Below are positions 15,097-30,484 of a stretch of DNA of 33,298 nucleotides, piece after piece. Both the position numbers and the translations under genes were made by a program. The number at the start of each line of letters is the position of its first letter. Positions within the stretch are counted from its first letter, which is position 1. Source of the stretch: Pirellulales bacterium (GTDB lineage Bacteria; Planctomycetota; Planctomycetia; Pirellulales; DATAWG01); the NCBI GenBank assembly GCA_035939775.1, contig DASZFO010000004.1, positions 1 to 33,298 on the forward strand, written 5' to 3'. The notes below the pieces were generated by a model. That model did not search any database, had not been told where the DNA came from, and worked only from the letters and a program-made list of their open reading frames with translations.

Positions 15097-15124
15097 GTCA
15101 GGATCGAAAGCCTGACCTACGGCT
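15097..15124. repeat. REP-like half element running into the tRNA-Leu 5' end
   Basis: GTCAGGATCGAAAGCCTGAC folds with a 6-bp stem and is followed by CTACGGCT. The same order, GTCAGGCCGGAAAGCCTGGC then CTACGGCT, occurs at 23739-23766, so this is half of the larger element there. The shared CTACGGCT includes the first four bases of the tRNA gene. Confidence 0.6.
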
Positions 15125-15677: not shown

Positions 15678-15804
15678 TTTAGAACGCCTAACAAATCCGG
15701 CTGGGAGAAGGAGACCGTCCCCGTTTTGCTCCGCCGACCATCGCAGCGATGGTGCCCGCGAAAAAGGGGGACAGTCCCCGCCGGATTTGTTAGGCGCTCT
15801 TAGA
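15678..15804. repeat. Composite nested palindrome (copy 1)
   Basis: The outer arms GCCTAACAAATCCGGC (15686-15701) and GCCGGATTTGTTAGGC (15780-15795) are perfect inverted repeats, with weaker pairing outside. Inside lie CCGTCCCCGTTTTGCTCCGC and GGGGGACAGTCCCCG, themselves parts of smaller palindromes. The core recurs at 27991-28092, and the outer arms recur at 30337-30390. There is no ORF or transposase, so it looks like a non-autonomous palindromic element. Confidence 0.8.
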
Positions 15805-15992
15805 AAATCCGTGCCACCGTGTAATCGGTAGTTCGCTGATTTCGGCTAAAGAGTTACCTGGAAGCGACTTCTAGCAATACCATCGCCTTGCGGCGGGGTT
15901 CAATCGCTAGGCCGGCTGTCGAGGGAATGCTCCGTCTACGGCCGGGCGGGAGGATCGCTCGGCGCCCAGTCCCCTAAATGGCGAGGGAAGTC

Positions 15993-16739
15993 ATGTCGCG
16001 TGCAAACTGTTTCGGGTTCGCTTCGTTGTCGCTCGTTTTGCTCGGCACAATGGTTGGCTGTCATGCATCCGCGGCCGAAGATCCGCCGGCCGCCCAGCGC
16101 CCTCAACGGGGAGGCGGCGGCGGCCGCGGCGGCGGCAATCTGTTCGCCAATGAGACGGTCCAGAAGGACCTCGCCTTGACGGCCGGACAGAAGGATTCGA
16201 TTAAGAAAATCTCCGATGATTTCCGAAAGTCGATGAGCGGCTTGACTCAAGCGGACCGTCAAACCAAGATGCCGGAATTGCGCAAGGCGATGGACGACAA
16301 GATCGACTCCGTTCTCAACGCCACGCAGAAGGCCCGGATGAAGGAGATTCGGCTGCAGGTCCAAGGCCCCGCGGCCCTCTCTACCAAAGAAGTGGCCGCC
16401 GCGCTCAAGCTGAGCGACGATCAAGTGAAACAGATCGCGGAATTGACCAAGGGCCTCGAAAATGCGCGGCGAGAAACACTCCAGTTCGGCGGCAGCGGCA
16501 GGAATGCCGACGTTCGAGAGCAACTCACCATTTTGCAGACCGAAGCCACCGAAAAAATCCTCGCCGTGCTGGATTCCGACCAGCAGGCCATTTTCGAGAA
16601 GATGCAGGGCGCGAAGATCGACTTGCCCGCCGGCGGTTTCGGTGGCGGCGGCAATCGTCGCGGCGGCAATCGCGGCGGGAACGCGGGTGGCAACGCGAGT
16701 AGCAACAGCAGTGGCAAGGGCGGCGCCAACGGCAATTGA
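15993..16739 (+). CDS. Secreted LTXXQ/Spy-like protein with Gly-rich ends
   Basis: This 248-residue protein starts at an ATG with GAGGGAAG just upstream. The N-terminus is an export signal: SLVLLGTMVGC could be a lipobox-like site, or cleavage may follow ASA. A Gly/Arg-rich segment comes next, then helices with the repeated L-T/S-x-x-Q pattern of CpxP/Spy-like proteins (LTAGQKDSIKKI, LSDDQVKQIAEL, LDSDQQAIFEKM). The last 40 residues are Gly/Asn/Arg-rich and disordered. In enterobacteria such proteins are periplasmic chaperones or stress sensors; in planctomycetes their role is not settled. The stop is 35 nt before the next ATG, so both genes may form one operon. Confidence 0.75.
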   Translation: MSRANCFGFASLSLVLLGTMVGCHASAAEDPPAAQRPQRGGGGGRGGGNLFANETVQKDLALTAGQKDSIKKISDDFRKSMSGLTQADRQTKMPELRKAMDDKIDSVLNATQKARMKEIRLQVQGPAALSTKEVAAALKLSDDQVKQIAELTKGLENARRETLQFGGSGRNADVREQLTILQTEATEKILAVLDSDQQAIFEKMQGAKIDLPAGGFGGGGNRRGGNRGGNAGGNASSNSSGKGGANGN

Positions 16740-16774
16740 GGGCGATACCGAACCGCTCGCCAGTGCAATCCTTC

Positions 16775-18145
16775 ATGAGAATCGAGAATGAGTTCGTGAC
16801 TAGGCTGATCGAAGCGGGCAAGGCCGTCATTTTGCCCGTCCTTTTTCTCGTGGCGCTCGTGAGCGGCGTTGGCGCGGCCGATGCGCCATCGTCGGGCGAG
16901 GAAGATCAACCTTGGTTGCGCCCCTACTCCGGACCTACGCAAAATGACGTTGACGCGACGACGCTCGACGGCAAGGTTCTCTGCGGCTATCAGGGATGGT
17001 TCAACACGCCGGGCGACGGAACGGATTTCGGGTTCGGGCATTGGGGGCAAGGGCTGGATCGGCCTGATGGCGGACGGTTCGTCGTCGATATGTGGCCCGA
17101 CGTTGCGGACTACGACCTGCACGATCTTTGTGAGGTCCCGGGCCTCAAAATGCCGGATGGTTCGCCCGCCCGGCTTTACAGCGCCTTCCGCAAGGGACCA
17201 GTGCTGCTGCATTGCAAGTGGATGCGGCAGTATGGTATCGATGGCGTCTTCCTCAGTCGATTCGTGGGGGAAACCGCCAACCCGGCGCGCGCCCGGCATC
17301 TGAATACGGTGCTCGCCGACGTGCGCGAAGGATGCCACCGCGAGGGGCGGGTCTGGGCGATGATGCTCGATCTCACGATGCGGCGCGGCGCATCGACGGC
17401 AATCGTGATGAACGACTGGAAGTTCCTCTGCGACAAGGTCCAGGTCCGCGAGGATTCACGTTACCTTCATCATCAAGGGAAGCCGGTCGTGCTGCTGTGG
17501 GGATTGGGGTTCAAGGACCGCCCCTGGACGCCGGAGCAAGGCGAGGAATTGGTCAACTTCTTCAAGAACGATCCGCACTACGGCGGAGTTTATCTGATTG
17601 GCGGGATCGACCCGCAATGGCGGACGCTGGCGGGCGGATCGCGGCCGGACGCAGGTTGGGCGAAGGTGTATCGGATGTTCGACTCGATCAGCCCGTGGAA
17701 CGCTGGACGCTTCCGCGACGACGCGGGCATGGACCGCATGCGCGAGACGGTGTGGGAACGTGATCTGGCCGAGCTGAAAAGCTTGGGGATCGGTTACATG
17801 CCGACGGCCTTTCCCGGTTTTTCCTGGGACAACCTCCGCCGAACGCCGCCGGGAACGACGATGACCGCGCGGCGGAAGGGGGAATTCTATTGGCGGCAAT
17901 TCGTCATCTTCAAGACCTTGGGAATCCGAACGGTCTTTGTCGGAATGTTTGACGAGGTCAACGAAGGGACCGCGATCTACAAGGTGGCCAACCAGATCCC
18001 AGTGGGAAAATACTTCGTGACGCTCGAGGGGCTTCCATCCGACTGGTATTTGAAGCTGACCGGCGCCGCAACTCAGATGATCCGCGGTGAGGCCCCAGTG
18101 TCGCAGAAGATTCCGGACGAGTTGCCGTTTCCAAAGGAGCAATGA
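16775..18145 (+). CDS. Secreted glycoside hydrolase, GH71/GH99-like
   Basis: This protein of about 456 residues has a signal peptide (VILPVLFLVALVSGVGAADA). The mature part resembles the GH71/99-like hydrolases that act on alpha-linked glycans: CGYQGWFNTPGDG, FGHWGQG, VDMWPDVADYD, a barrel strand YGIDGVFLSRFVGE, WAMMLDLTM, GKPVVLLWGLGF, and IRTVFVGMFDEVNEGTAIYK. The DEVNEG segment holds acidic residues at the barrel end where catalysis would be expected, but I cannot assign the acid/base with certainty. Three starts are possible: TTG 16736, ATG 16775 and a GTG near 16796 with a GA-rich region before it. I kept the ATG. The substrate is unknown. Confidence 0.78.
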   Translation: MRIENEFVTRLIEAGKAVILPVLFLVALVSGVGAADAPSSGEEDQPWLRPYSGPTQNDVDATTLDGKVLCGYQGWFNTPGDGTDFGFGHWGQGLDRPDGGRFVVDMWPDVADYDLHDLCEVPGLKMPDGSPARLYSAFRKGPVLLHCKWMRQYGIDGVFLSRFVGETANPARARHLNTVLADVREGCHREGRVWAMMLDLTMRRGASTAIVMNDWKFLCDKVQVREDSRYLHHQGKPVVLLWGLGFKDRPWTPEQGEELVNFFKNDPHYGGVYLIGGIDPQWRTLAGGSRPDAGWAKVYRMFDSISPWNAGRFRDDAGMDRMRETVWERDLAELKSLGIGYMPTAFPGFSWDNLRRTPPGTTMTARRKGEFYWRQFVIFKTLGIRTVFVGMFDEVNEGTAIYKVANQIPVGKYFVTLEGLPSDWYLKLTGAATQMIRGEAPVSQKIPDELPFPKEQ

Positions 18146-18227
18146 GAAGCGCGGCGCGGGTAACGACGGAGGGCGAAGGCTAACATAACATGAGTGGCTC
18201 GCCAAACCGCTTAGTGCCGCCCGTTTT

Positions 18228-20843
18228 TCATCCATTCATTCGTCGCCGACGAATGCCGTTGATGAGTAGGCCGAGCAGTCCGACGGCGGATAGCAGGATG
18301 GTCGAAGGCTCGGGCACCGTTGCGGGGCCGATTCCGGCGTTGGGCGTTGCTTGCGAAAACGCCGTTTCGACGGAATTCGAGTCGCCGCTCGCCGCGCCGT
18401 CGATCAAACTTGCGGACCCGATGCCGTCGGCAAACGGATCATTCGACGCAAGCGATCCAGCCAAGGCCAATCCGCTCGACTGACCCAGGGGATTGCCTGA
18501 GGCGTCGCTCGCGTCGATCGTCACCAAGCCAGGGTTGCCGGCCGTGCCGCCGACGACCAGCGCGCTTTGGACGATGTGGTTGGCGGTGAGATCGCTTCCC
18601 CCATTTACTTGCGTAATGCCCGAACCGTCGATGTTTCCCACTTGCTGATGCGTGCCGGAGACGAGTAGCCCGGCTGCAGCGATGCTGGTGTTGATGATGT
18701 TCACGCGGTTGGCGCCGGAAGATAAGGCTGAGACGGAACCAGCCAGTTCCAACGTCCCGCGGACTGCAACCGTCGCGGTGACTCCCGTGCCGATTGTGGC
18801 CGAGCCCGAGGCGGCCTTGAACCGCAGGGTGCCTCGGGACAGTTCCAACATACTGTTGTTGTTCAGCGTCGGGGCGCCGTCGATTTCCGTGGTTCCGTTC
18901 CCCAGCAGGTTTAAGGTGCCCGTGGTAGTCAGTGCCCCCGTAGAGTTCAACGTGGCGACGGTGGCGACGTTGACCGTTACTGATCCGGTGCCCGATTCAT
19001 CGCTCGTCAAACTACTTACAGTCTGGCTCGCGCCAAGAGTCAAGGCGGAGGTGACGCCCGAACCGTTGATCGTCAAGGGGCCGCTTCCGAGAGCGCCAGA
19101 GGCAGTAGTTGTCAATGCGCCGGAGTTGATCGTCGTGCCGCCGCTAAAGGTATTCAAATCGGACAGGGTGAGCGTACCGGTGCTGGTCTTGGTCAAGCCG
19201 CCCGCCCCTGCAAGGATCAGCGTGCTTGGGAACGTCAGAGCGGCTGAATTGTTTACTGTAAACGAGGTGGCCGTCAGCGTGCCGTTTTGAATCGTGCCCG
19301 CAGCGATGTTGACGGCGCCGACGTTCTGGTTAGTGTTGCCCAGATCAAGAATGCTGCCCGAGCCGTTGATCGTCAGGGAACCGCTGCCGAGCGCGCCGGA
19401 AGTGGTGGTTTTCAACGTGCCGGAGTTGATCGTCGTGCCGCCACTGTAAGTATTGGCGCCCGAAAGAATCCAGACGCCGGTGCCGTTCATGGTGACAGCT
19501 AGTTGCCCTGCGCCGTTATCGGCCAAGACGCCGCTGATCGTGTTCGCGCCGATGTTGGCTCCATTCAAAGTGAGCGTCGTAACGCCACTTGTCGCGCCGG
19601 GTGTTATTCCGCCGCCGAAACTTAACGTGGCGGAGCTGCTCGTTGCGTTGGAGTTAAGCGTTGTGGGCCCCTCTAGCACGAGCGGAGCGTTGACCATTTG
19701 AGCGGTTGACACCGTTGGAGAACTCTGAATCGAGCCGCCGGCGGTCAGCAGCAGGGCCTGGCCGCCGACCGTGCCGATGGTCAACGAATTGACGTTAGCG
19801 GTATCGAGGGTGATGTTCTGGACGTTGCGGCCGGCGTCGATGGTCAAAGGCGAATTTGGCGCACTCTGATTGAAGAGGGCGGTGTCGGTGTTCGCCGTGC
19901 CCGTGGTAGCGCCGGGCGCCGCGTCGGACCAATTGGCGCTGTCGGCCCAGTTCGTGCTGTTCGTTCCGCTCCAGGAGGATGTCACGGTCACAGAAGAGAC
20001 GTAAATGCCTAACACGTTAAAAAACCCCGTGATCAGCGCGGCGTTCACCGTCGCCCCCGAGGCGGCGTTGTATTCGCCAATCGCGTTGCCATCCTTGACA
20101 AACAGATTCCCGCCCGACGCCGCGATGCCCTGTGGGTTATTCAACCCCGTGATCAGTGAAGCGTTCACCGTCGCCCCCGAGGTGGTGTATTCACTAATCG
20201 TGCCGTCTATGCTCACGCCGACAAACAGATTCCCTCCTGACACCGCGATGCCACCCGGGCCATTCAACCCCGTGATCAGCGCGGCGTTCACCGTCGCCCC
20301 TGTGGAGGTGTATTCGCCGATCGTGCCGGCATTTGCGTTTAAAAAGTTCGTGACAAACAGATTCTCTCCAGACACGGCAATACTTAGCGGGTTAATCAGC
20401 CCCGTGATCAGTGAAGCGTTCACCGTCGCCCCCGAGGCCGTGTATTCGCCGATCGTTCCAGAGTTCACGACGTGGTTCACGACAAACAGATTCCCTCCAG
20501 AGACCGCGATGCCAGCCGGGCTATGCAACCCCGTGATCAGCGCGGCGTTCACCGTCTCCCCCGTGGTGGTGTATTCGCCAATCGTGCCACTGGCATTGTT
20601 CACGACAAACAGATTCCCTCCTGACACCGCGATGCCATACGGCTGATTCAAACCCGTGATCAGTGCGGCATTCACCGTTGCCCCCGTGGTGGTGTATTCG
20701 CCAATCGTGCCATTGTTATAGTTCGTGACAAAGATTTGCGCGAGAGCGGTTGCGGGCATGGCCCAGAGCGCCATCGCGCCAAGAAGGAGCGTGTAAAGGG
20801 CGCGCGACCGCGGCCGCGGCTTGAATGTGGTGCTTGTTTTCAT
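18228..20843 (-). CDS. PEP-CTERM surface protein with NHL-like and autotransporter-type repeats
   Basis: This protein of about 871 residues has a signal peptide (SRALYTLLLGAMALWAMPAT, then ALAQ). Residues about 36-290 are near-identical repeats of roughly 40 residues with the pattern GTIGEYT, ATVNAALITGL, GIAVSGGNLFV, like an NHL/beta-propeller. A bridge (SWSGTNSTNWADSANWSD) leads into autotransporter-associated beta-strand repeats (NTYSGGTTINSGTL, NTFSGGTTINSGAL). The end has the PEP-CTERM signal: VPEPSTILL, a hydrophobic helix (SAVGLLGLLING) and IRRRRMNG, recognised by exosortase. It is probably exported and sorted to the envelope. The start is chosen at ATG 20843 for the signal peptide; ATGs at 20867 and 20897 are alternatives. 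Confidence 0.85.
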   Translation of the reverse strand: MKTSTTFKPRPRSRALYTLLLGAMALWAMPATALAQIFVTNYNNGTIGEYTTTGATVNAALITGLNQPYGIAVSGGNLFVVNNASGTIGEYTTTGETVNAALITGLHSPAGIAVSGGNLFVVNHVVNSGTIGEYTASGATVNASLITGLINPLSIAVSGENLFVTNFLNANAGTIGEYTSTGATVNAALITGLNGPGGIAVSGGNLFVGVSIDGTISEYTTSGATVNASLITGLNNPQGIAASGGNLFVKDGNAIGEYNAASGATVNAALITGFFNVLGIYVSSVTVTSSWSGTNSTNWADSANWSDAAPGATTGTANTDTALFNQSAPNSPLTIDAGRNVQNITLDTANVNSLTIGTVGGQALLLTAGGSIQSSPTVSTAQMVNAPLVLEGPTTLNSNATSSSATLSFGGGITPGATSGVTTLTLNGANIGANTISGVLADNGAGQLAVTMNGTGVWILSGANTYSGGTTINSGTLKTTTSGALGSGSLTINGSGSILDLGNTNQNVGAVNIAAGTIQNGTLTATSFTVNNSAALTFPSTLILAGAGGLTKTSTGTLTLSDLNTFSGGTTINSGALTTTASGALGSGPLTINGSGVTSALTLGASQTVSSLTSDESGTGSVTVNVATVATLNSTGALTTTGTLNLLGNGTTEIDGAPTLNNNSMLELSRGTLRFKAASGSATIGTGVTATVAVRGTLELAGSVSALSSGANRVNIINTSIAAAGLLVSGTHQQVGNIDGSGITQVNGGSDLTANHIVQSALVVGGTAGNPGLVTIDASDASGNPLGQSSGLALAGSLASNDPFADGIGSASLIDGAASGDSNSVETAFSQATPNAGIGPATVPEPSTILLSAVGLLGLLINGIRRRRMNG
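20020..20740. repeat. Six tandem coding repeats of about 115-135 bp
   Basis: The phrase CCGTGATCAG followed by GCGTTCACCGTC (or a close variant) recurs near 20027, 20146, 20271, 20401, 20530 and 20656, each with a TGTATTCGCC-like and ACAAACAGATTCCC-like segment after it. The units encode the propeller-like repeats of the PEP-CTERM gene on the other strand. High DNA identity suggests recent expansion or gene conversion. Confidence 0.8.
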
Positions 20844-21062
20844 GGTTGTTGTTGTGGCCTCTTTCATGGCCGGTTTGATCAAATAATGTTGTGGCATGGT
20901 CTCCCGACCGTCGCTATCTACGCATCGTCGGTGACGGAAGCGGAGGTCGTCGGACGGCGTGCTGAAATACGCGGAATCTGGGCCAGCCCAGGGCCGGAAG
21001 GCCCGGCAGGAAATAGCCCCAAACCGTAAGGTTGTGGACAAGATACGACCAAATCGAGTTTC

Positions 21063-21135
21063 GAGGTCCGACGGACCGGCACTGCCGCGCGCATGAAGGG
21101 TTCTCCACGGCATCGTGCCGGTCCTCGGGACCTCC
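21063..21135. repeat. Nested inverted repeat
   Basis: GAGGTCCGACGGACCGGCAC and GTGCCGGTCCTCGGGACCTC are inverted copies flanking about 32 nt. Each arm is also a small hairpin (GGTCC-GAC-GGACC and GGTCC-TCG-GGACC). The build, a palindrome made of palindromes, is like the elements near 15.7 and 23.7 kb. It lies between the two surface-protein genes. Confidence 0.7.
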
Positions 21136-21159
21136 ATGTTTAATTGGCGCGACGAACAT

Positions 21160-21204
21160 CCGCGATCTGACGATCGCGGCTACTGCCTATCGGCCCTCTG
21201 GGCC
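21160..21204. terminator. Two short hairpins after the LEPR-XLL gene
   Basis: CCGCGAT-CTGACG-ATCGCGG (21160-21179) and GGCCC-TCT-GGGCC (21192-21204) lie just past the stop of the minus-strand gene ending at 21212. Neither has a T-tract, so they may protect the 3' end or help termination only weakly. Confidence 0.4.
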
Positions 21205-21211
21205 TATCGCA

Positions 21212-23650
21212 TCAGGACAACAGCTCCTTGCTATTCCGGGCTCGTAGAGCATCGAGCCGTGAACCGTTCAGCAACTCGAAAAGCGCATCCAAGCTGTCGG
21301 TGTCGGCGACAGGTTGCGCGCCGCCGCCGTCTGCTTTGCTCGATGATGGTGCGGTCCAACCACCGAAACCGGCGGCATTTCCCAGAACGGCGTCGCGGGC
21401 GGTCGCCGAGGCCGACGTACTTACGCCCGTCGAGGTCGAAGCAGTGGGAGTGGTCGCGGTGCTGGCGGAGGCAAACGTCGCAACGTTCTGCGACGAGCCG
21501 CCGGATTCCACCACGGTCGTCGTGACGGTGTACGAGCTGTTTTTGGCGTAGGTGTGGGAGCCTTTTACCGTATAAGTTGAGCCCGACAGCGAAATGCTGC
21601 CGGTCGAAGTCGAGTTATCGCCCCAATTTATCGTGGCGACGAAGGCGCTTGTCGGCTCGACTCCACTGGCGTGAATGAAGGTCGCGACCACCTTATTGCT
21701 CACGTTCTTGCCGCTCACGCTGACGGGCGCGGAGATGGTTATCGCGTCCTCCGCTACGGCGGTGGTCACGACCGAGGTGTTGTTGTAGAGGTTGGCATCG
21801 GAAAGGCTGCTCGTGACAGAGACCGAGTTGGTCAGATTGCCGTCTTCGGTGGACTGAGCCGTGACGGTCGCCGTGACCGTCTGGCCGATGGCGAACGTGC
21901 CGAAGGAAAACGTGACCGTGCTCCCCGATTGCGTGAACGTCCCCTGGCTCTTCGTCGCCGAGACATATTTCAGATTGGCACCGAGCGTATCGGTCAGGAC
22001 GACGTTCATTGCAGTGGTCGGCCCGTTGTTCGTCACCGTGAGGCTGTAAGTCGCATTGGCCCCCTCGGTGCTCGTGGTCGGCCCGTTGTTAGTGACGGCC
22101 AGATCGGCGCTTGAGCCGACGACGCCCCCCGTGAACGAAATCGGCGCCGACGCGATGCCGTTGGCGACCACCGTCAGATTGTAGGTGCCGTAGGGCATGA
22201 AGGCGGCCGTTGCGAACTCCGTGCTCACCGGAGTGCTGCCCGTGGCCACACCGGTGCTGCTCCAGTTGAAGGTCTGGGCGAAGTATTCGTGCCCCGATCC
22301 ATCCGTCGCTTGCAGCTCGACGAGCGGATAGTTGCTGTCCATCTCCGCGGCGAAGCCGCAGCTCGCGCCGGCGGACAGGCCATTGAGTTGCGTCCCCGTC
22401 AGAGTGAAAGTGCCATCGCCGTTATTGGCGACGCTGCTGATGGTCGGCTGCCAGGCTGCTTGCGGCGCGCCGGCGGGCGTATACACGTAAAGCTGGTTGG
22501 ATCCGTAAGTAAACAGCGCCTGCCCAGTGGGCAGCACCAACATCCGGGTCACCCAGGACGGCTGTTTGGAAAGATCGACGGCAGAAGGCGTGACATCGGT
22601 AAGAGAGCTATCGTTCGGATCGAATTCAAAGATATGAGTCGGACCGCCGTAGCCCGGCGGCGTCGCGCTCGCTGCAAACAGGACGTGTCCGTTGGGCAGC
22701 ATCGCCGCTGCGGCTTCGTTGCCTCCCAAACCGCCAGGAATGACCGGACCGGCGGTCCAGGTGTTCGTCGAGGGATCGTACAGGGCCGAATTGCTGTCGG
22801 CCCCCACCTGAAAAACTTGACCGTCGGGGAGCAGAACGGCGGGGCCGATCCTGGGTCTGGTACCAGCTTGCAGCGCGACGGGCACGGTCCCGGCGTCGAC
22901 CCAGCTCATCGTCGAGAGATCGAGTCGTTGAGCTTCTGTCGAACCGGGTCCGAAACTGTCGTTCAGATCATAAGACAGGACGCTGCCATCCGGCAGTTTG
23001 GTCCAGGTTTCATACCAGCTCGAGTCGTTATAGAGCTTTGTTGGGCCAGGCGACCAGGCGTTCGCCACCGGATCGTAGATGTAAGTTTGCGGGCCATTCA
23101 TCGACCCCGCCAGGACCGTGCCATTCGGCAGGAGCATCGTTGGGCCACCGAACGTTGGCTCCGGGAAATTCGGGATATTCGTCCAGGTATTAGTGATCGG
23201 GTTATAGATTTCACCGGTGTTGTTCCAAACTCTGTTGGCGCCGCTGGCGTTGTACTCGCCCCCCAGAACGAAGACGCGGCCGTCCTGGAGCACGTTCGTG
23301 GCGTCGAAATCAGTGATGAGACTATCACCCGCTGCCTGCGACCAAGTGCCGTTGACATAGCTGCCGGTAGCGTCCGGAGTCAGTTTGAACCAAGCATTGG
23401 AAGTGTAAAGGTTCGCTGCCGAAGCCAACACGGTGCCGTCGGAAAGCAGCTCCATGGTGCCGACGTTGGAGGTTGGGGTCGGGGCGACATGGGCCAGGGC
23501 CGTCCAAGTGCCGGGGGTTGCGGTGAGCATCATTCGCGGTTCAAGTGCCTCCATCCCGGGGCGCCGAGCGAGGGTGCGTCGTCGATCGGCGCGAGTGCGG
23601 AGAGATTTGGAATCGGAACGCTGGCGTCGCTTGGCCTTGGCCTGGAACAT
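21212..23650 (-). CDS. Large LEPR-XLL surface protein with kelch-like, DUF11 and PKD-like domains
   Basis: This 812-residue protein has AAGGAT before the ATG. The N-terminus is Lys/Arg-rich and carries MEALEPRMMLTA near residue 34, the LEPR-XLL motif typical of planctomycete exported giants. Residues about 50-400 are kelch/galactose-oxidase-like repeats (LQDGRVFVLGGEYNASG, GEIYNPITNTWT, LLPNGTVLAGS). A galactose-oxidase-type C-terminal beta domain follows, then a DUF11 repeat (YSLTVTNNGPTTAMNVVLTD) and a PKD-like domain (FVATINWGDNSTSTGS, GSHTYAKNSSYTVT). A Ser/Thr-rich linker and a short conserved-looking tail (DSLDALFELLNGSRLDAL) close it. I do not see the copper-radical Cys/Tyr set clearly, so oxidase activity is not claimed. 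Confidence 0.83.
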   Translation of the reverse strand: MFQAKAKRRQRSDSKSLRTRADRRRTLARRPGMEALEPRMMLTATPGTWTALAHVAPTPTSNVGTMELLSDGTVLASAANLYTSNAWFKLTPDATGSYVNGTWSQAAGDSLITDFDATNVLQDGRVFVLGGEYNASGANRVWNNTGEIYNPITNTWTNIPNFPEPTFGGPTMLLPNGTVLAGSMNGPQTYIYDPVANAWSPGPTKLYNDSSWYETWTKLPDGSVLSYDLNDSFGPGSTEAQRLDLSTMSWVDAGTVPVALQAGTRPRIGPAVLLPDGQVFQVGADSNSALYDPSTNTWTAGPVIPGGLGGNEAAAAMLPNGHVLFAASATPPGYGGPTHIFEFDPNDSSLTDVTPSAVDLSKQPSWVTRMLVLPTGQALFTYGSNQLYVYTPAGAPQAAWQPTISSVANNGDGTFTLTGTQLNGLSAGASCGFAAEMDSNYPLVELQATDGSGHEYFAQTFNWSSTGVATGSTPVSTEFATAAFMPYGTYNLTVVANGIASAPISFTGGVVGSSADLAVTNNGPTTSTEGANATYSLTVTNNGPTTAMNVVLTDTLGANLKYVSATKSQGTFTQSGSTVTFSFGTFAIGQTVTATVTAQSTEDGNLTNSVSVTSSLSDANLYNNTSVVTTAVAEDAITISAPVSVSGKNVSNKVVATFIHASGVEPTSAFVATINWGDNSTSTGSISLSGSTYTVKGSHTYAKNSSYTVTTTVVESGGSSQNVATFASASTATTPTASTSTGVSTSASATARDAVLGNAAGFGGWTAPSSSKADGGGAQPVADTDSLDALFELLNGSRLDALRARNSKELLS

Positions 23651-23701
23651 GATTGGGATCCTTGTTGGTTGTGGGTCGGCTTGTGGCGATACGATTTCGA
23701 G

Positions 23702-23763
23702 TAGGTCAGGCTTTCGAGCCTGACTCCCGCCGGTGGAAGTCAGGCCGGAAAGCCTGGCCTACG
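23702..23763. repeat. Full REP-like element with UUCG-loop hairpin
   Basis: The left half, GTCAGGCT-TTCG-AGCCTGAC (23705-23724), is a perfect 8-bp stem with a TTCG tetraloop. The right half, GTCAGGCCGGAAAGCCTGGC, is a looser hairpin. The halves are inverted to each other (GTAGGTCAGG... against ...CCTGGCCTAC). The right half is shared with 15097-15124. Confidence 0.75.
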
Positions 23764-23784
23764 GCTACGGCTGTTTCCCTACTC

Positions 23785-23818
23785 AACAGTGCGACAAACG
23801 GCCTGCGAACCCCTCACA
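23785..23818. repeat. 34-bp dispersed repeat (copy 1)
   Basis: This starts AACAGTGCGACAAAC and ends GCGAACCCCTCACA. It matches 28099-28132 with two mismatches. Both copies lie in spacers upstream or between genes, beside palindromic elements. Confidence 0.7.
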
Positions 23819-23884
23819 AAAACTTACGCAAATTGACGCAGATTCACGGTGTTTGCTGGTTTGTGGATTGGTTGATCGTCCGGC

Positions 23885-23913
23885 TAGGATCGTTTTACGC
23901 GACGAGGTACAAT
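23885..23913 (+). promoter_or_regulatory. Possible promoter of the DUF104/PIN pair
   Basis: TACAAT at 23908-23913 is a good -10 match, 17 nt after TAGGAT, a weak -35. The predicted start lies about 25 nt before the antitoxin ATG. Motif match only. Confidence 0.35.
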
Positions 23914-23944
23914 TAAGACATCAATCCTCAAGTGGAGTTGTCCG

Positions 23945-24151
23945 ATGACGCTTACTGCAAACGCCATCTACGAAAACGGCGTGCTGAAACTGGATCAACC
24001 GTTGCCGCTCAAAGAGCATGAAAAGGTCCGGGTCACGGTCGAGCCAAACGTTAGCCTGGCACAACAGACCGCCGGAATGATCGGCTGGACAGGGGATGTC
24101 GAGACCTTTGAGCGGATTCTTAAGGAAGCCGAAGAGACGCAGTATCTATGA
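23945..24151 (+). CDS. DUF104/AF2212-like antitoxin
   Basis: This 68-residue protein begins MTLTANAIYENGVLKLDQ, followed by PLPLKEHEKVRVTVEP, the usual start of DUF104 (AF2212-like) antitoxins, a small beta-rich DNA-binding fold with an AbrB-like look. The C-terminal helix (ETFERILKEAEET) would wrap the toxin. It overlaps the PIN gene by four bases (ATGA), the standard antitoxin-first order. It probably represses its own promoter. Confidence 0.85.
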   Translation: MTLTANAIYENGVLKLDQPLPLKEHEKVRVTVEPNVSLAQQTAGMIGWTGDVETFERILKEAEETQYL

Positions 24152-24645
24152 CCTTCGACGACCTGCCGGCTGGCGCCGTTGTTTTCCTGGACGCGAACCT
24201 GCTGGTCTATCACTTCGCTGCCCATCCGACTTTCGGCACTTCTTGTTCGAGACTGATTGAGCGTATTGATAAGAAAGAGATTGCGGCGTTCACGTCCACT
24301 CATGTCCTGAGCGAAGTTGCTCATCGCCTGATGACCTACGAAGCCTCCAACGTGTTTGGTTGGAAATCCAAGATTGTTGACCGCTTGAAGCGGCATCCGA
24401 CCGAAATCCAGAAGTTGCAGTCTTTTCGCCAGGCGATCGAGAGAATTCCCCAGCTTGGAATTCAGATTCTGACGATCCCAGCCCATCTGGTCGCCGCCGC
24501 TGCCGCGCTGAGCATTCGATACGGACTGTTGAGCAACGATGCGCTCGTGGTTGCAATCATGCAGGCCCAGGGCCTCACAAGCCTAGCCAGCCACGACGCC
24601 GATTTCGACCGCGTGCCCGGGCTGGTGCGATACACCGCCGCCTGA
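24148..24645 (+). CDS. PIN-domain ribonuclease toxin (VapC-like)
   Basis: This 165-residue PIN protein has the acidic residues of the family in order: Asp15 in FLDANLLVYHF, Glu near residue 51 in VLSEVAHRL, Asp near 132 in LLSNDALVVA, and Asp residues in SHDADFDRV. These bind Mg ions and cut RNA, often tRNA or rRNA in VapC toxins. It is translated by coupling with the upstream antitoxin. The length (slightly longer than a typical VapC of about 130-150) comes from the central segment between residues 60 and 110. Confidence 0.88.
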   Translation: MTFDDLPAGAVVFLDANLLVYHFAAHPTFGTSCSRLIERIDKKEIAAFTSTHVLSEVAHRLMTYEASNVFGWKSKIVDRLKRHPTEIQKLQSFRQAIERIPQLGIQILTIPAHLVAAAAALSIRYGLLSNDALVVAIMQAQGLTSLASHDADFDRVPGLVRYTAA

Positions 24646-24754
24646 ATCAGCGCGCTTGCCTGTCCATGTCGCAGGTCGAAGAGATTGAGGCGTCGATAGT
24701 CCGTGATTCGTTGTCATTCGCTTTTGGCTCAACCAGTTGGTGAAAGGGAGGCTA

Positions 24755-24897
24755 TCCACAGATGACACAGACGAACCTAGCGCGGCCTAACGGCCGCAAC
24801 CAAATGCGCGCGTCTCTCGTACAGTCCTCCGGATAGTAGCACAGATTGGGATCCGCACGACGACGGAGAATCTGTGTGCATCTGCGTCATCTGTGGA
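24755..24897. repeat. Inverted repeat between convergent genes
   Basis: TCCACAGATGACACAGA (24755-24771) and TCTGCGTCATCTGTGGA (24881-24897) match as inverted copies at 16 of 17 positions. Inside is a small perfect hairpin GCGGCC-TAAC-GGCCGC (24782-24797). The spacer between the PIN and kinase gene ends (24646-24909) contains nothing else that I can recognise. Confidence 0.65.
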
Positions 24898-24909
24898 CAA
24901 AAAGCGGTT

Positions 24910-27900
24910 TCATTTGCCGGATTTGTTTGTCACGGCGGAGGCTGGCTTCGACTCGGTTGCTGACTCCGGCTTCTTGGTTGGCGGAGTAAGCTCTATGGGC
25001 ACGGTGGGATTCGCTTTCTCGAACTCGGCCAGTTTTGCCTTCCAGGCGGCGACTTTTTCCGGCTGTTTCGTCGCTTCGTACAATTGCACGAGGCGCTGAA
25101 GCGCATCCCCCAGACGCGGTTTGAAAGAGGGGGGGATTCTGGCTGCGCGATCCTGCATCCCTTCGTAGCCGGAGATTAGCAGCGGCTCGGCCTCGGCGTA
25201 TTTCTTCAGCCCCAGCAGCACTTCCCCCAACAAGCTCCGGATCATGAAGTTCCACCAATCGTCTGGGCGCACTCTTTCGCGGATCTCTAAGAACTCTCTG
25301 GTCAGTGGCTCGGCCTCGGCCAGCCGGTTGGCATCCACGTAAGCGCTCACTAGGTTGTTCATCGAGCTAAGGGTGTCGGGGTGTTCTGGTCCGAGTATGG
25401 CTTTCTTGAATTTGAACGCCTCTTCAGTCAGCCGAATAGCCTCGTCGCTCCGCCCCGCGTCTGAATAAGCGATCGCTAGATTGCTCATCACGGTGAGCGT
25501 GTTGGGGTGCTCCGGTCCAAATTTGGCCTTCATGAGTTTGAGCGTTTCCTCACCTAGTCGAATGGCGGCGATTGTGCGTCCAGCTCTTTGATAATCGGCC
25601 GCTAGATCGGCCATACTCGCGAGCGTATCGTGGTGGTCCGGACCCAGCTTAGCTTTCTCGAGTCCAAGCGCTTGTTCATACAGCCGAACGGCGTCGTCGC
25701 TCCGCCCTGCGTCTTGATAAGCGTTCGCTAGATTGCCCATCATCGCGAGCGTGTCGGGGTAGTCCCGGCCCAGTTTGGCCGTCATGATTTTGAGCGATTC
25801 CTCAAGCAACCGCACGGCCTCATCGAACCGTCCAGCCGCTCGATAGGCGTCCGCTAGATTCCCCATCGACGCAAGCGTTTCGCGCCGCTCCGGTCCCATT
25901 TTGGCTTTCCGAAGCTTGAGTTCTTCTTCACGAAGCTGAACGGCCTCGTCGACCCGTCCGGCGTCTTGAAAGGCGTTGGCTTGAATGCCCATCGCGTCGA
26001 GCGTTTGGGGATGCTGCGGACCGAGTTTGGCTTTCCCGAGGCTGAGCGCCTCTGCGATCATCGGGAGCGCCTCGTTCAGGCGACCTGCTCTCAGGTACGC
26101 GTCGGCTAGGGTGCACTTCGTCCAAAGGGTGTCAGGGTGCTCCGGTCCTTGTTTAGCCGTCCGGAGCTTGAGCACTTCCATATAAAGGGGAATGGCCTGG
26201 TCGAACCGTCCGGCGCTTCGGTGATCTTCCGCCAGGCAGACCATCGCTTGGGTCGTGATGGGGTGCTCGTGTCCCAGCTTGCCCTCGCAGACCTTGACGT
26301 TTTCTTCATCCAGCCGAAAGGCTTCGTCGAATCGTCCGTTGGCTCGATAAACGATGGTCAAGTTGTTTATCGCGTTGAGTGTATTGGCGTCGTCGCGGTC
26401 CAGTGCGCCGATTCGCAATTCGAGGGCTTGATCAAGCAATTGATTCGCTTCGTGCTCTAGTGCCAAACCATGATACGAATGTCCGATGAGTTCGAGCAGA
26501 AGTGCTTTAGTACGCGGATCGTCGGCGAACTTCTCTTGGACTTCCTTTGCCGATCGATCGAGGGCCTCGACGATAGTGACGGTACGTCCGTCGCGCTTTA
26601 TATCACCGTTGGTGAAAGCGTTAAAGAAAAGCTGCTGAAAGGCATCTGCCGCTCGCTGCTTGATCGAGGTTTGAGCTTCCGCGTCGTAAGCGCGGATCGC
26701 CTGCCACGTACTAATCACCGTTCCCAGAACGAGAGCGATCATCACGGCTCCCGCTGTCAGCAGCGTCGCCTTGTTCCGCCGAGCGAATTTGCGAAAGCGG
26801 TAGCGGACCGAGGGTGGGCAGGCTTGCACTGGCTCGTCGTGCAGGTAGCGCTCCACGTCGCCGGCCAGGGCGCTGGCCGTCTCGTAGCGGCGGGTGCGGT
26901 CTTTTTCCAGGCACTTCATCACGATCCAATCCAGTTCGCCGCGGAATAGGCGGGTCAATTGTCGCGGGTCGCTCTTGCGCTGCGTGCCAACGGTGCTTGC
27001 CGCTTCGAGAGCGAGAGTCGTTAGCCGCGTGCTGGGCCGGGGCGGTTCTTCCTCGCGGATGATCCGCCGCAGCTCGTCGAAGGCGACGCTCTTCAGCCGC
27101 TGGCTGTCGAACGGCGTCGTGCCAGACAGCAGCTCGTACAAAAGCACGCCCAAGGAATAAATGTCGCTGCGGGTGTCGACATCCTGCGCGCTCAACTCTG
27201 CTTGCTCGGGTGACATGTAAAGCGGCGTGCCGATCAGTTGGGCGAAGCCCGTGAACAGAGTCTTGTCGGTGAGCTTCTGCCCAGTGGCTTTGGCCACGCC
27301 GAAGTCGATCACTTTCGCCAGCGGGCGGCCGTCTAGTTGCGTCACCAGCACGTTGGTGGGCTTGAGGTCGCGATGGATAATGCCCTTCTGATGGGCATGC
27401 TGCACCGCTTGGCAAATCGTGACGAATAACTCCAACCGCTCGCGGATTGAGAGCCTCTTTTCGTCGCAGTATTCGGTCATCGGCACGCCGCGGACCAATT
27501 CCATCACGAAGTAGGGCCGGCCGGTTTCCGTCGCCCCGGCATCGAGCACGCGGGCGATGTTCGGATGGTCCATCAGCGCCAGCGCCTGCCGCTCGGCTTC
27601 GAAACGGGCGACCACCTGCCGGGTGTCCATGCCTGCCTTGATGATCTTCAGGGCCACGCGGCGCTGCACGGGGCGAATCTGCTCGGCCATGAACACGACG
27701 CCCATGCCCCCTTCGCCGATTTGCTCCAGCAGCTTATAGGGACCGATCACCGTACTCGGGCCTTCGCGGAGCGGAAGATCGCTGGTGACGTCGGGGGCGG
27801 ACGCCGGATGCTCGAGAAAGCTCCCCGCATCGGCCTGCGCCGCAAGCATGCGCTCGACGCGGCCGCGCAGCTCGTCATTGCCCGCGCAGGCCTCGTCGAG

Positions 27901-27978
27901 AAGAGCCACGCGCTCCGCGGAGGATTGCTTTCCCAACGCGGCAAAGAAGATCGATTCGAGGGGAGATGAATTGCTCAT
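24910..27978 (-). CDS. Ser/Thr protein kinase with C-terminal TPR array
   Basis: This 1022-residue PknB-type kinase has a regulatory N-terminus, then the kinase domain at about 78-375: P-loop GEGGMG (88-93), Lys111 in VALKII, catalytic HRDLKPTN with Asp204, DFG Asp225, and YMSPEQA. All key residues are present, so it should be active. A single membrane helix (TLLTAGAVMIALVLGTVIST) lies near 405-424. The rest holds about ten TPRs of the kinesin-light-chain type with a 42-residue period (GPEHPDTL, LADAYLRAGR, EALPMIAEAL). The kinase would face the cytoplasm and the TPRs the other side. The ECF sigma factor gene upstream on the same strand suggests a shared signalling pathway, as in many planctomycetes. 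Confidence 0.93.
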   Translation of the reverse strand: MSNSSPLESIFFAALGKQSSAERVALLDEACAGNDELRGRVERMLAAQADAGSFLEHPASAPDVTSDLPLREGPSTVIGPYKLLEQIGEGGMGVVFMAEQIRPVQRRVALKIIKAGMDTRQVVARFEAERQALALMDHPNIARVLDAGATETGRPYFVMELVRGVPMTEYCDEKRLSIRERLELFVTICQAVQHAHQKGIIHRDLKPTNVLVTQLDGRPLAKVIDFGVAKATGQKLTDKTLFTGFAQLIGTPLYMSPEQAELSAQDVDTRSDIYSLGVLLYELLSGTTPFDSQRLKSVAFDELRRIIREEEPPRPSTRLTTLALEAASTVGTQRKSDPRQLTRLFRGELDWIVMKCLEKDRTRRYETASALAGDVERYLHDEPVQACPPSVRYRFRKFARRNKATLLTAGAVMIALVLGTVISTWQAIRAYDAEAQTSIKQRAADAFQQLFFNAFTNGDIKRDGRTVTIVEALDRSAKEVQEKFADDPRTKALLLELIGHSYHGLALEHEANQLLDQALELRIGALDRDDANTLNAINNLTIVYRANGRFDEAFRLDEENVKVCEGKLGHEHPITTQAMVCLAEDHRSAGRFDQAIPLYMEVLKLRTAKQGPEHPDTLWTKCTLADAYLRAGRLNEALPMIAEALSLGKAKLGPQHPQTLDAMGIQANAFQDAGRVDEAVQLREEELKLRKAKMGPERRETLASMGNLADAYRAAGRFDEAVRLLEESLKIMTAKLGRDYPDTLAMMGNLANAYQDAGRSDDAVRLYEQALGLEKAKLGPDHHDTLASMADLAADYQRAGRTIAAIRLGEETLKLMKAKFGPEHPNTLTVMSNLAIAYSDAGRSDEAIRLTEEAFKFKKAILGPEHPDTLSSMNNLVSAYVDANRLAEAEPLTREFLEIRERVRPDDWWNFMIRSLLGEVLLGLKKYAEAEPLLISGYEGMQDRAARIPPSFKPRLGDALQRLVQLYEATKQPEKVAAWKAKLAEFEKANPTVPIELTPPTKKPESATESKPASAVTNKSGK

Positions 27979-27990
27979 GGGAGACTTTCT

Positions 27991-28092
27991 TGAAGCAGTT
28001 TCAAAGCCGCGGGGGAGAAAGGGACAGTCCCCGTTTTGCTCCGCGGACTGCGCAAAAGGGGGTCAGTCCCCGGCGGCTTTGAGACAGCTTCA
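27991..28092. repeat. Composite nested palindrome (copy 2)
   Basis: The outer arms TGAAGCAGTTTCAAAGCCGC (27991-28010) and, inverted, GCGGCTTTGAGACAGCTTCA pair with few mismatches. The inside, GGGACAGTCCCCGTTTTGC and GCAAAAGGGGGTCAGTCCC, is inverted again and matches copy 1 at 15.7 kb. The outer arms differ from the other two copies while the core is shared. It lies directly before the kinase start codon. Confidence 0.8.
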
Positions 28093-28098
28093 CTAATG

Positions 28099-28132
28099 AA
28101 CAGTGCGACAAACAGCCCGCGAACCCCTCACA
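28099..28132. repeat. 34-bp dispersed repeat (copy 2)
   Basis: This matches 23785-23818 with two mismatches (AACAGTGCGACAAAC ... GCGAACCCCTCACA). It is sandwiched between the composite palindrome and an ACGGAT-type inverted repeat. Confidence 0.7.
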
Positions 28133-28171
28133 GAATATCCGGGTTTGTGAGTCTAGCCGTTAGAAGCAGAG

Positions 28172-28265
28172 AACCACGGATTACACGGATTTCACGGATG
28201 AGATCGTGCAGCAAATGGATTCGCCCTTGTTTTGAAAATCCGTGTCATCCGTGAAATCCGTGGTT
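28172..28265. repeat. ACGGAT-type inverted repeat
   Basis: A 28-nt arm (AACCACGGATTACACGGATT then TCACGGAT) is inverted at 28238-28265 with three mismatches. Each arm has short tandem ACGGAT units. Similar phrases are common between genes in planctomycetes and relatives. Here it could form a long hairpin after the sigma factor gene and before the kinase gene. Confidence 0.7.
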
Positions 28266-28294
28266 TGCTACATTTGGGTGAAGTTGCCCAGATT

Positions 28295-28870
28295 CTATGG
28301 ATCGGGGTCCCGTGGTTGGTCCGCGAGTTCGGAAAACAGCCAGGAGCGGGCGAATGTCCAGTGGCGCTCGGCCGTGGCCAGGGAGATTCCGAGGGCTGAG
28401 GCGGCCTCGGGCATGGTCAGCCCGGCGAAGAAGCGGAGTTTCACCAGATCCGCCTTGGCCGGCTCGATGGCCGAAAGTTTTGTCAGAGCTTCATCGAGGG
28501 CGAGCAAGTCGAGCGACGGCGGTTCGGATACCGAGCAGGCCGAATCGAGATCGACGCGCCGCCGCTCGCCGCCGTGCTTGAGCCGCCGCTTATGCCGGGC
28601 CTGTTCGACGAGGATTCGCCGCATCGCCTCCGCGGCCGCGGCAAAGAAGTGCCCGCGGCTGTTCCAGCGCTGATCGCCGTCGCCGCCGACCAGCCGCAGA
28701 TAAGCATCGTGGACGAGCGCGGTCGCCTGGAGCGTCTGTCCGGGTTTTTCTTGCGCCAAGCGCTGGGCGGCCAGTCTGCGCAATTCGTTATAGACGAGCG
28801 GCAAGAGTTGCTCGGCCGCACTTGGATCACCTTTTTCGACGGCGGACAGAATCCGCGTGACGTCGTTCAT
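28295..28870 (-). CDS. ECF-type RNA polymerase sigma factor (Sig-70_X6-like)
   Basis: This 191-residue protein has sigma region 2 in residues 1 to about 95 (AEQLLPLVYNELRRLAAQRL, TALVHDAYLRL, AMRRILVEQARHKRR) and region 4 in 130-180 with a helix-turn-helix (LTMPEAASALGISLATAERH, then WTFARSWL). The wording fits the planctomycete/acidobacterial family often called Sig-70_X6. These factors usually sit beside a Ser/Thr kinase instead of a classical anti-sigma factor; the TPR kinase 316 nt downstream fits this. Phosphorylation control of the factor is inference. The spacer to the kinase holds three repeats, so transcription may not run through freely. Confidence 0.92.
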   Translation of the reverse strand: MNDVTRILSAVEKGDPSAAEQLLPLVYNELRRLAAQRLAQEKPGQTLQATALVHDAYLRLVGGDGDQRWNSRGHFFAAAAEAMRRILVEQARHKRRLKHGGERRRVDLDSACSVSEPPSLDLLALDEALTKLSAIEPAKADLVKLRFFAGLTMPEAASALGISLATAERHWTFARSWLFSELADQPRDPDP

Positions 28871-29377
28871 TTTGGCGTCGCAATGGAGGCCCGCGGAACT
28901 TCTAGTGAGTCGAGCGGCATGCTCGGTCAGGCTCGGAATTGTCGCTATCGATCCGACCGACCGGATGGAATCTCACGGTCGGAACATTCCCCCCACGATA
29001 GGCGTCCTGACAAACGAAGTCAAACGATGGAAGATCTGCCCTGTCGCGCCGGTTTTCGTGAAGCCTTCCCCAGACCTTATCGGGCAGCGTACGGGTCGCG
29101 AGAGTGTTGAAATAGAGGAGATGGATTGCGGATGCTGATAGCGCAAATCCGATCGCGCTCATCGATTGAGCTAATTGCACCGCTAGCGCGCTTGAGTAAG
29201 CAAGCGACACCGACCGCACGACCGCGCCCGGTCGAGAGACGGCACTCATCTTCCCGATAAGTAACACGGCGGCGGGCGGCGGACTTCCGTGGACGCAATT
29301 TCAGAACTGCCGATCGTTGTGCTCGGTCACCGCCGGGTGAAGGCTTCCCGTTGATCCAATTCGCTCAGTCAATCGCT
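28871..29377. other. Spacer without a clear gene
   Basis: This is the region between the divergent sigma-factor gene and the secreted-protein gene. A 121-codon minus frame at 28902-29267 has a weakly hydrophobic start, but its second half reads like random sequence. No tRNA, strong hairpin or clear repeat is seen. Promoters for both neighbours should lie here, though none is convincing. Confidence 0.5.
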
Positions 29378-30277
29378 ATGTTCGCCCGGTCTTTTTCGTG
29401 TCGTTCATTGCCGAGTTGGTATCTCGGTTTACCGCTCTGCCTCGCTCTGTGGTGCAGCTTAACGGACCTCTCGCGAGCCGAACGGCCGCGCGATCGCTCG
29501 GAGAAGAACGCCGTTCGCGGGTTGACTGGCGATTTTGACGGTATTGGCTTCGTGCTCTGGATTTCGCGAGATCAGGCACAACAGCTTCTGCCGAAGAACC
29601 CCGACCTGCGGTTGGACTACCCCGGCGGCGGCCAGCGCTATCCGATCGTGCTTCTGCTCGGCGCGCAACAAGACGTGGGGGTGCAATTCGGGCGCGGATA
29701 TGTCCATCCGCGGTTTCTCAAGCATTACGAGAACGCCTACGTGATCGTGCCCTATTTGCGGCACCCGGCGCTCGCGAGCTACGGCTACACATTTTCACGG
29801 ATTTATGTCTCGGACGAGCGGATCGTCGAGGACGGGACCAAGCTGAATCACTCCCCAAAGGTCCATGCCGAGATCGAAGACCAGTCGGACCGGTTTGTGA
29901 TAAACTTTGAGGGGCAGCGGCGGATTGACCTGGCGATCCGAGAACGGCCGACCACCGGCAATCTTGCCGGCGGTGCCACCGAAGGCAATGTCCGCGAAGC
30001 TTCGTCGCGCAACAGCGGCAATCCGCCCTCGACGCCCGATTTTCTGCGCGAGGTCTTCAAGCAACCGAAAATCGAGTTTTCTCCGAATCCGCACGTCTTC
30101 GATTTCGACTTCATGGCCGAGGCGTCGGCGGTCCGTCCGGTGGAAGTCTCCGGCACGATTATCTTGCAGCCAGCGGCAGGTTCGGCGGCCGGCGCGGCCG
30201 ACATTGCGGCCCTCGCACCGGGCCATCAAGTCGAAGCGATCCACTTTTCCAGTCATTGGACGAAAAAGCCGGAATAG
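29378..30277 (+). CDS. Secreted protein of unknown function
   Basis: This protein of about 299 residues starts at the first ATG (an in-frame TTG lies at 29351). A signal peptide is visible (WYLGLPLCLALWCSLTDLSRA). The mature part has DGIGFVLWISRDQAQQLLP, YPIVLLLGAQQDVGVQFGRG, YVHPRFLKHYENAYVIVPYL, and later HVFDFDFMAEA and VEVSGTIILQP, which suggest beta-rich folds, but no known motif is recognised. There are no cysteines in the mature part, and the middle (residues about 190-225) is low-complexity. It stands alone between a divergent regulator and a repeat element. The frame and export signal support a real gene; no function can be given. Confidence 0.7.
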   Translation: MFARSFSCRSLPSWYLGLPLCLALWCSLTDLSRAERPRDRSEKNAVRGLTGDFDGIGFVLWISRDQAQQLLPKNPDLRLDYPGGGQRYPIVLLLGAQQDVGVQFGRGYVHPRFLKHYENAYVIVPYLRHPALASYGYTFSRIYVSDERIVEDGTKLNHSPKVHAEIEDQSDRFVINFEGQRRIDLAIRERPTTGNLAGGATEGNVREASSRNSGNPPSTPDFLREVFKQPKIEFSPNPHVFDFDFMAEASAVRPVEVSGTIILQPAAGSAAGAADIAALAPGHQVEAIHFSSHWTKKPE

Positions 30278-30330
30278 ATGACGTCCGGGCAGATTTGCGG
30301 CTCTGGGCAAATCATTTCGGCCCGCTTGGT

Positions 30331-30396
30331 AAGAACGCCTAACAAATCCGGCTGGGCGACGGGGAACAGTCCCCGCCGGATTTGTTAGGCCTGTTA
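30331..30396. repeat. Composite nested palindrome (copy 3, short form)
   Basis: The perfect outer arms GCCTAACAAATCCGGC (30337-30352) and GCCGGATTTGTTAGGC (30375-30390) are the same as in copy 1, but the centre is reduced to a GGGGAACAGTCCCC-type piece. Copy 1 minus its inner hairpin gives this form, which suggests internal deletion or modular assembly. Confidence 0.8.
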
Positions 30397-30484
30397 AGCG
30401 GTGAGGGATTTGCCGATTTTTTCGAGAGCCCCAGAAACGATTGTGCCGATGATGGAGTAGGCACAGACTAGGGGGAATCTGCCA

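Follow-up and report, generated by a model that had tools for sequence, protein, structure and literature searches.

The DNA analysed here is a 33,298-nucleotide stretch from a Pirellulales bacterium (contig DASZFO010000004.1 of assembly GCA_035939775.1), which we call the window; it is contig C4 of an assembly of 6.39 Mb in 384 contigs. Between positions 15,678 and 30,396 it carries three copies of a composite palindromic element, each bounded by 20-bp terminal inverted repeats (TIRs, or arms) and holding one or two copies of a 13-bp core, GGGGACNGTCCCC. The parts of these copies are listed below, with letters for the arm types that we distinguish across the genome.

15679..15681, no strand: copy 1, left target-site duplication TTA
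15682..15701, + strand: copy 1, left 20-bp TIR, arm type A
15702..15709, no strand: copy 1, 8-nt linker TGGGAGAA
15710..15722, no strand: copy 1, core 1, GGAGACCGTCCCC, with 1 mismatch
15723..15766, no strand: copy 1, 44-nt spacer of the HP+18 type, with ACCATCGCAGCGATGGT hairpin
15767..15779, no strand: copy 1, core 2, exact GGGGACAGTCCCC
15780..15799, - strand: copy 1, right 20-bp TIR, arm type A
15800..15802, no strand: copy 1, right target-site duplication TTA
27992..28011, + strand: copy 2, left 20-bp TIR, arm type C
28020..28032, no strand: copy 2, core 1, AGGGACAGTCCCC
28033..28058, no strand: copy 2, short 26-nt spacer
28059..28071, no strand: copy 2, core 2, GGGGTCAGTCCCC
28072..28091, - strand: copy 2, right 20-bp TIR, arm type C
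30330..30332, no strand: copy 3, left target-site duplication TAA
30333..30352, + strand: copy 3, left 20-bp TIR, arm type A
30362..30374, no strand: copy 3, single remaining core, GGGAACAGTCCCC
30375..30394, - strand: copy 3, right 20-bp TIR, arm type A, outer end altered
30395..30397, no strand: copy 3, right target-site duplication TAA

Copies 1 and 3 share their outer arms (repeat D16, 91% identity over 34 nt; the arm pairs are I4 and I15), and copies 1 and 2 have the inner core in common but differ in their arms (repeat D11, 83% over 47 nt), both as a preliminary description of this DNA had held. Its third claim, that copy 3 is copy 1 without the inner part, is borne out as well: one core is kept, and what copy 3 lacks is the stretch that separates two directly repeated 13-mers. 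Copy 3 is a deletion derivative, and the loss probably took place between the two direct cores, since a single remaining core, as found here and in a second copy elsewhere in the genome (L022:14490), is the product expected of such a deletion. When folded as single-stranded DNA, copies 1, 2 and 3 score z values of -7.1, -6.6 and -7.7, respectively, and for none of the three did any of 200 shuffles fold as well.

Anatomy and copy number of the element

An exact search of the whole genome located the 13-bp core at 407 sites, and the reversed pattern used as a control at none. We then sampled 1,849,752 bases, made up of the window and 120 other stretches of the same genome, most of them chosen for known core matches. 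This sample contains 228 of the 407 exact cores and 167 element loci, a few of which are chance matches to a single core (such as L099:5285, L119:17537 and L132:13120), and extrapolation from it suggests about 300 element loci genome-wide. For 146 loci a subfamily could be assigned, and the other 21 were left out of that classification for want of a clear core pair and linker. A longer core pattern, GGGGACNGTCCCCNTTTTG, has 177 sites in this genome, 5 in one genome of the same family and 1 each in two others, and was not found in the remaining 35 of the 39 genomes searched. Abundance here and near-absence in relatives indicate that, among the genomes searched, the amplification is lineage-specific.

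A standard copy consists of a 20-nt arm, a core, a spacer of the form TTTTG...CAAAA, a second core, a linker of 7-10 nt and another 20-nt arm. Most of the 146 classified copies have the interior layout GGGGACNGTCCCC-NTTTTG ... CAAAAN-GGGGACNGTCCCC, which is that of two repetitive extragenic palindromic (REP) units in inverted orientation, or a REPIN. Identity between left and right arms drops sharply beyond position 20, which marks the arms as terminal inverted repeats of fixed length. At an arm length of exactly 20, 42 of the 98 well-armed copies have the same 3 nt on both flanks, whereas 20,000 shuffles averaged 13.9 such pairs and never exceeded 30; other TIR or duplication lengths that were tried gave no comparable excess. 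These flanks are TAA and TTA in 15 copies each, TTC in three, TGA, TCA, ATA and CAA in two each, and GAA in one. Such a 3-bp TNA-type duplication is a transposon signature, and it is the rule in the IS5 family of insertion sequences (IS).

We consider that the elements are miniature inverted-repeat transposable elements (MITEs) whose ends are of the IS5 family and whose interior is a REPIN made of two REP-like hairpins in inverted orientation, and we give this account a probability of roughly three in four. An IS5-family DDE transposase, which was not found intact in the assembly, would have recognised the 20-bp TIRs, and the whole unit would have been inserted at TNA-type sites with duplication of 3 bp.

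Probable separate origins of the arms and the core

The C-type end GAAGCNGTTTCAAAAC occurs in 24 of 196 genomes of the order, our bacterium included. At three loci (L154, L162 and L177) this end, or a copy of it with at most 3 mismatches, bounds elements of about 900 bp whose transposase matches PF01609 (E 3e-15 to 1e-14); the best NCBIfam model for all three is IS5_3, whose cut-off is exceeded by L162 only. The B-type end occurs in 8 of 294 genomes of the phylum, again including our own. One of these (L290) contains an 893-bp element with perfect 16-bp B ends, TAA on both flanks, a first frame that matches DUF4096 (PF13340, E 4.5e-25) and a second frame that by eye appears to be the DDE part. 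Elsewhere, B-type ends enclose other interiors that lack our core (L292, L300 and L304; G232 and G411 are such genomes). By these matches, the B and C arms are the ends of complete IS5-family elements in other planctomycetes, of a subgroup that we take to be IS427/IS1031-like, and the A and D arms may by analogy be ends of the same kind. At three loci in other genomes (L291, L295 and L303), two B-type ends lie about 50 bp apart and form very short TIR-TIR hairpins.

Within our genome, one core is found with four main arm types (A, B, C and D) and an intermediate. By linker and inner arm, the 146 classified copies divide into A (29), B1 (42), B2 (57), and D or C (18), with B2 defined by its linker and not by its length. 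A script assigned different types to the left and right arms in just 2 of 109 two-armed copies, both with borderline scores; by eye, arms also look hybrid at L132:10157, L037:1022 and L047:7601. Left and right arms are thus nearly always of the same type, and exchange takes place between copies or lineages and not freely within a copy. The two arms also covary: matched non-consensus changes number 10 in A (shuffled mean 4.0), 15 in B (3.6), 10 in C (3.0) and 18 in D (2.3), where the maxima over 2000 shuffles (10, 11, 10 and 15, respectively) mean that the A and C values were reached by at least one shuffle.

The loop varies independently of the arms. It can be short, contain a hairpin longer by 18 nt (in A, B1, B2 and D), or, in 7 B2 copies, contain a CTCTCCC...GTGAGGG intergenic repeat whose motif has 29 sites outside elements and 9 inside them in the same sample. 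We envisage that the TIR type changed several times as a matched pair while the core stayed constant, whether new ends were captured or existing ones diverged, and that loop modules were swapped as well. A further short module, GCGGATGTTCCACCC, lies mostly between core and arm (L114:12078, the L122:2499 region, L128:10423, L132:16888 and L036:10425). Directly after copy 2 in the window, positions 28089-28135 form a 47-nt repeat that is 87% identical to positions 23775-23821 and contains GAACCCCTCACA, which resembles a lone D-type arm.

The same independence of arms and interior is seen outside our genome. A genome of another family (G021) has 77 exact C-type ends, many of which surround an unrelated inverted pair, GGGTGCCACTGCTNGC, with 284 matches in that genome. 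Of 20 regions fetched from it, a majority show C-like arms that differ in quality, with degradation in some; such arms are missing at four REP sites or regions (L193:201, L204, L205 and L206). The same composite is found in another genome (G019, at L153), where one side of it was seen. By sequence comparison, then, two REPINs that are unrelated to each other occur within one arm type, and several arm types enclose the same REPIN. The preliminary description had proposed a modular, mobile, REP-like family in which arms would not always be matched to one core, and that much holds. Its suggestion that palindromes nest into one another survives in altered form, as a REPIN between IS5-type MITE ends and, in some REPIN loops, a separate intergenic repeat. 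We also considered pre-existing empty arm hairpins as targets, which find no support in this genome; in its first 408 kb, arms almost always accompany a core, although other genomes do have the B-ended elements without this core mentioned above.

Some of this diversity could have arisen without any joining of parts. Suppose that all copies belong to one lineage in which the two arms diverged jointly in place while hairpin-templated correction maintained their similarity, with no capture or nesting of modules. The uniform arm length of 20 nt, the alignability of all arms, the innermost AACCGCC common to B, C and D, the covariation of left and right arms and the existence of intermediates (the GAGCGTCTCACAAAACCGCC side of L046:6086) all agree with this proposal. 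However, it leaves unexplained why in other genomes these arms are found around cores of unrelated sequence or around no core at all, and why loops contain a repeat that also exists independently. We judge it unlikely as a full explanation.

The core appears to have a different source from the arms. Four Y1_Tnp genes, which encode REP-associated tyrosine transposases (RAYTs), are present in the genome. One of them (L017) is bounded by AAAAGGGGACATTCTACTTTT repeats, and AAAAGGGGAC is common to these repeats and the core. The nearest named relatives of the RAYT protein are mostly planctomycete records, and many of 80 RAYT relatives have GGGGAC-like repeats; in one of the 80 (L281), the core itself stands on either side of the gene. 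The GTAG tag was not seen, by eye, in the listed core sequences, which points to a repeat of the TIRYT type and away from a GTAG REP. According to PMC3733652, TIRYT genes have repeats that share GGGGWSAS, and the core motif GGGGACAG fits this consensus. We regard a RAYT link for the core as plausible, with an HUH tyrosine transposase that would use GGGGAC-type repeats. Among the other RAYT genes, the one at L018 (contig C100) has flanks GGGGATAGGTCC and GGACTTATCCCC-like, a related but different terminal repeat. The one at L019 is surrounded by inverted repeats GTAGGTCAGGCC...GGCCTGACCTAC, the same type as a second, GTAG-tagged REP family in the window, whose GTAGGTCAGGC...GCCTGAC hairpins lie at 15097-15120, at 23701-23724 and in the 23739 region.

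It could then be asked whether an IS200-like RAYT moved the whole element as a single REP or REPIN family, the arms being mere REP flanks without any IS5 contribution. The four RAYT genes, the terminal repeats of one of them and the relative with cores on both sides favour this, and REPs inside genes are already described in PMC3733652. Even so, we find the proposal improbable, more so than divergence in place. The element has TIRs and a 3-bp duplication, and these are not expected for HUH single-strand transposition. Moreover, the same ends bound complete DDE insertion sequences, and the exact core is absent from the examined flanks of all four RAYT loci in the genome. The IS200-like transposase anticipated in the preliminary description is not supported for the arms and is kept as a possible mover of the core. 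Functional RNA or DNA hairpins under selection (terminators, regulatory or supercoiling sites, with compensatory covariation) would suit the strong folding, the covarying arms and the mostly intergenic positions, but we hold them to be very unlikely; the absence of Rfam matches at element copies, the target duplications, the presence of the longer core pattern in just 4 of 39 genomes (our own included) and the in-frame copies in enzymes described below speak for mobile DNA, although individual elements may have acquired some use later.

Several observations weigh against MITEs with IS5-family ends and a captured REPIN. Identical 3-nt flanks are missing from 56 of the 98 well-armed copies, including window copy 2, whose flanks are CTT and ACT. 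The genome yielded no intact insertion sequence that has these ends: PF01609 has four partial matches, none with matching TIRs, PF13340 has no match, and the best transposase relative is truncated, with 53% identity over about 106 residues. Two of the PF01609 loci, L089 and L090, are fragmentary and have no matching TIRs, and a copy of the element lies near L089. B-type copies with the core were seen in our genome only, which means that capture was not directly observed. The exact core accompanies only that single one of the 80 RAYT relatives, and the shared AACCGCC means that divergence in place can explain part of the arm diversity. A partner insertion sequence in the same genome is not required for a relic MITE family, and it may be hidden by sequence missing from the 384-contig assembly.

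Copies within protein-coding genes

Most copies are intergenic, but 13 loci were called as lying within genes and having an open frame. The calls are based on a conservative codon-usage test, in which the MetH and histidine kinase loci were scored on one side. Eleven of the 13 are among the 146 classified copies, and these comprise 9 B2 copies, 1 A and 1 B1, the last two having spacers of 24 and 51 nt, both multiples of three. The share of predicted in-gene copies is therefore higher in B2 (9/57) than in the other subfamilies (2/89; Fisher p 0.004), as is the share of copies whose full insertion, including arms and 3-bp duplication, is a multiple of three (49/57 versus 7/89), comparisons that count related copies and whose p values do not come from independent events. 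About four of six frames are open in every subfamily (means 3.4 to 4.1, counted on the 109 copies with both arms), which indicates that length, not openness, separates them. It is B2, with an insertion length that is usually a multiple of three, that occurs inserted in frame within genes.

Homologues of known structure that align on both sides of the insert confirm the predicted in-frame insertions in four enzymes. The insert spans 27 residues in BioA, compared with 2 in the homologue, 41 versus 4 in RecG, 21 versus 1 in MetH, and 29 versus 1 in dihydrolipoyl dehydrogenase (Lpd). In KdpA, where the predicted peptide is GLSPFVESSEQKGTVPL, in ZnuA and in an HD-domain gene, one Pfam match each spans the insert. 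Both arms can be recognised in 4 of the 11 copies within genes, compared with 101 of the 129 others (p 0.005, copies at contig or stretch edges left out); of the remaining in-gene copies, four lack both arms and three lack one, and the MetH copy keeps core and linker with no arms. The arms may have been lost after insertion, or the REPIN may move alone. We do not take the arm-free copies as proof of the latter, because they are few and later arm loss fits them too.

A broader possibility, which we put forward tentatively and hold to be somewhat less likely than not to be correct in full, is that IS5-type MITEs repeatedly load whichever REPIN is resident (GGGGACNGTCCCC here, GGGTGCCACTGCT in G021 and G019), such that two mobile-DNA chemistries have been fused more than once. 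One branch would then have fixed a length divisible by three and entered protein genes, where TIRs tend to be lost and the extra peptide stays in RecG, MetH and other enzymes. Given that about four of six frames are open in all subfamilies, it would be frame length that acts as the filter, and not openness. On our main account, the elements offer a concrete route of spread for REPs that needs no transposase of their own, since they travel between the two ends of a MITE of DDE-transposon type. The subfamilies also constitute a natural experiment on mobile DNA entering coding sequence, as siblings that are about equally free of stops have lengths that differ modulo three, and the in-gene copies come almost entirely from the one with a length divisible by three. 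The question of coding entry was raised by the Rickettsia palindromic elements and is testable here in a planctomycete.

Other repeats are also present in the window. Further intergenic hairpins, at 28172-28265 and 24755-24897, contain inverted repeats of ACGGATTTCACGGAT-like and CAGATGACACAGA-like text. Repeats within genes, of the kind found in repeat proteins, occur at 25370-26308 (7 copies at an exact spacing of 126 bp) and at 20091-20720 (5 copies of about 123 bp). An Rfam match to Acido-Lenti-1 RNA lies at 21160-21205 (40.5 bits, gathering threshold 37).

Comparison with known systems

MITEs and REPINs are established kinds of element, as are REPs in genes and palindromes that code for protein. 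In the literature on planctomycete palindromic elements and on REP, IS5 and MITE composites, as far as the accessible portions extend, we found no description of this composite or of a length contrast modulo three between sibling subfamilies, and the core 13-mer was not found in the literature searched. The nearest relatives of the elements as a whole are IS5-family MITEs, with which they share 20-bp TIRs of the GAGCC... form, the 3-bp TNA-type duplication, the lack of coding capacity and the existence of complete insertion sequences with the same ends in other planctomycetes (L290 for B; L154, L162 and L177 for C). In contrast to such MITEs, the interior here is a REPIN and not an internally deleted insertion sequence, several TIR types share one interior, and no intact partner was found in the same genome.

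REPINs and their RAYTs are reportedly the subject of work by Bertels and Rainey (PMC3116915). Two inverted cores, high copy number and RAYTs with GGGGAC repeats are features that our elements share with REPINs and with the TIRYT or TIRtron repeats described in PMC3733652. They differ in that most copies lie inside IS5-type TIRs with a target duplication, and from classical REPs in that the GTAG tag is not evident in the core. The same paper describes double inverted repeats in P. putida and P. fluorescens, in which degenerate GTAG-1 units are joined to unrelated stem-loops. Those families likewise comprise hundreds of composites of a REP and another inverted repeat, although the outer repeats, as presented there, are not tied to IS5-family ends or to a TNA duplication. 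Finally, the Rickettsia palindromic elements, as outlined in PMC10969869 and PMC3733652, are short palindromic mobile elements that lie in-frame in enzyme genes, much as our copies lie in those for BioA, RecG, MetH and Lpd. In the planctomycete, by contrast, most copies lie between genes, those within genes come almost exclusively from the subfamily with an insertion length divisible by three, and the unit is built as a MITE bounded by TIRs.

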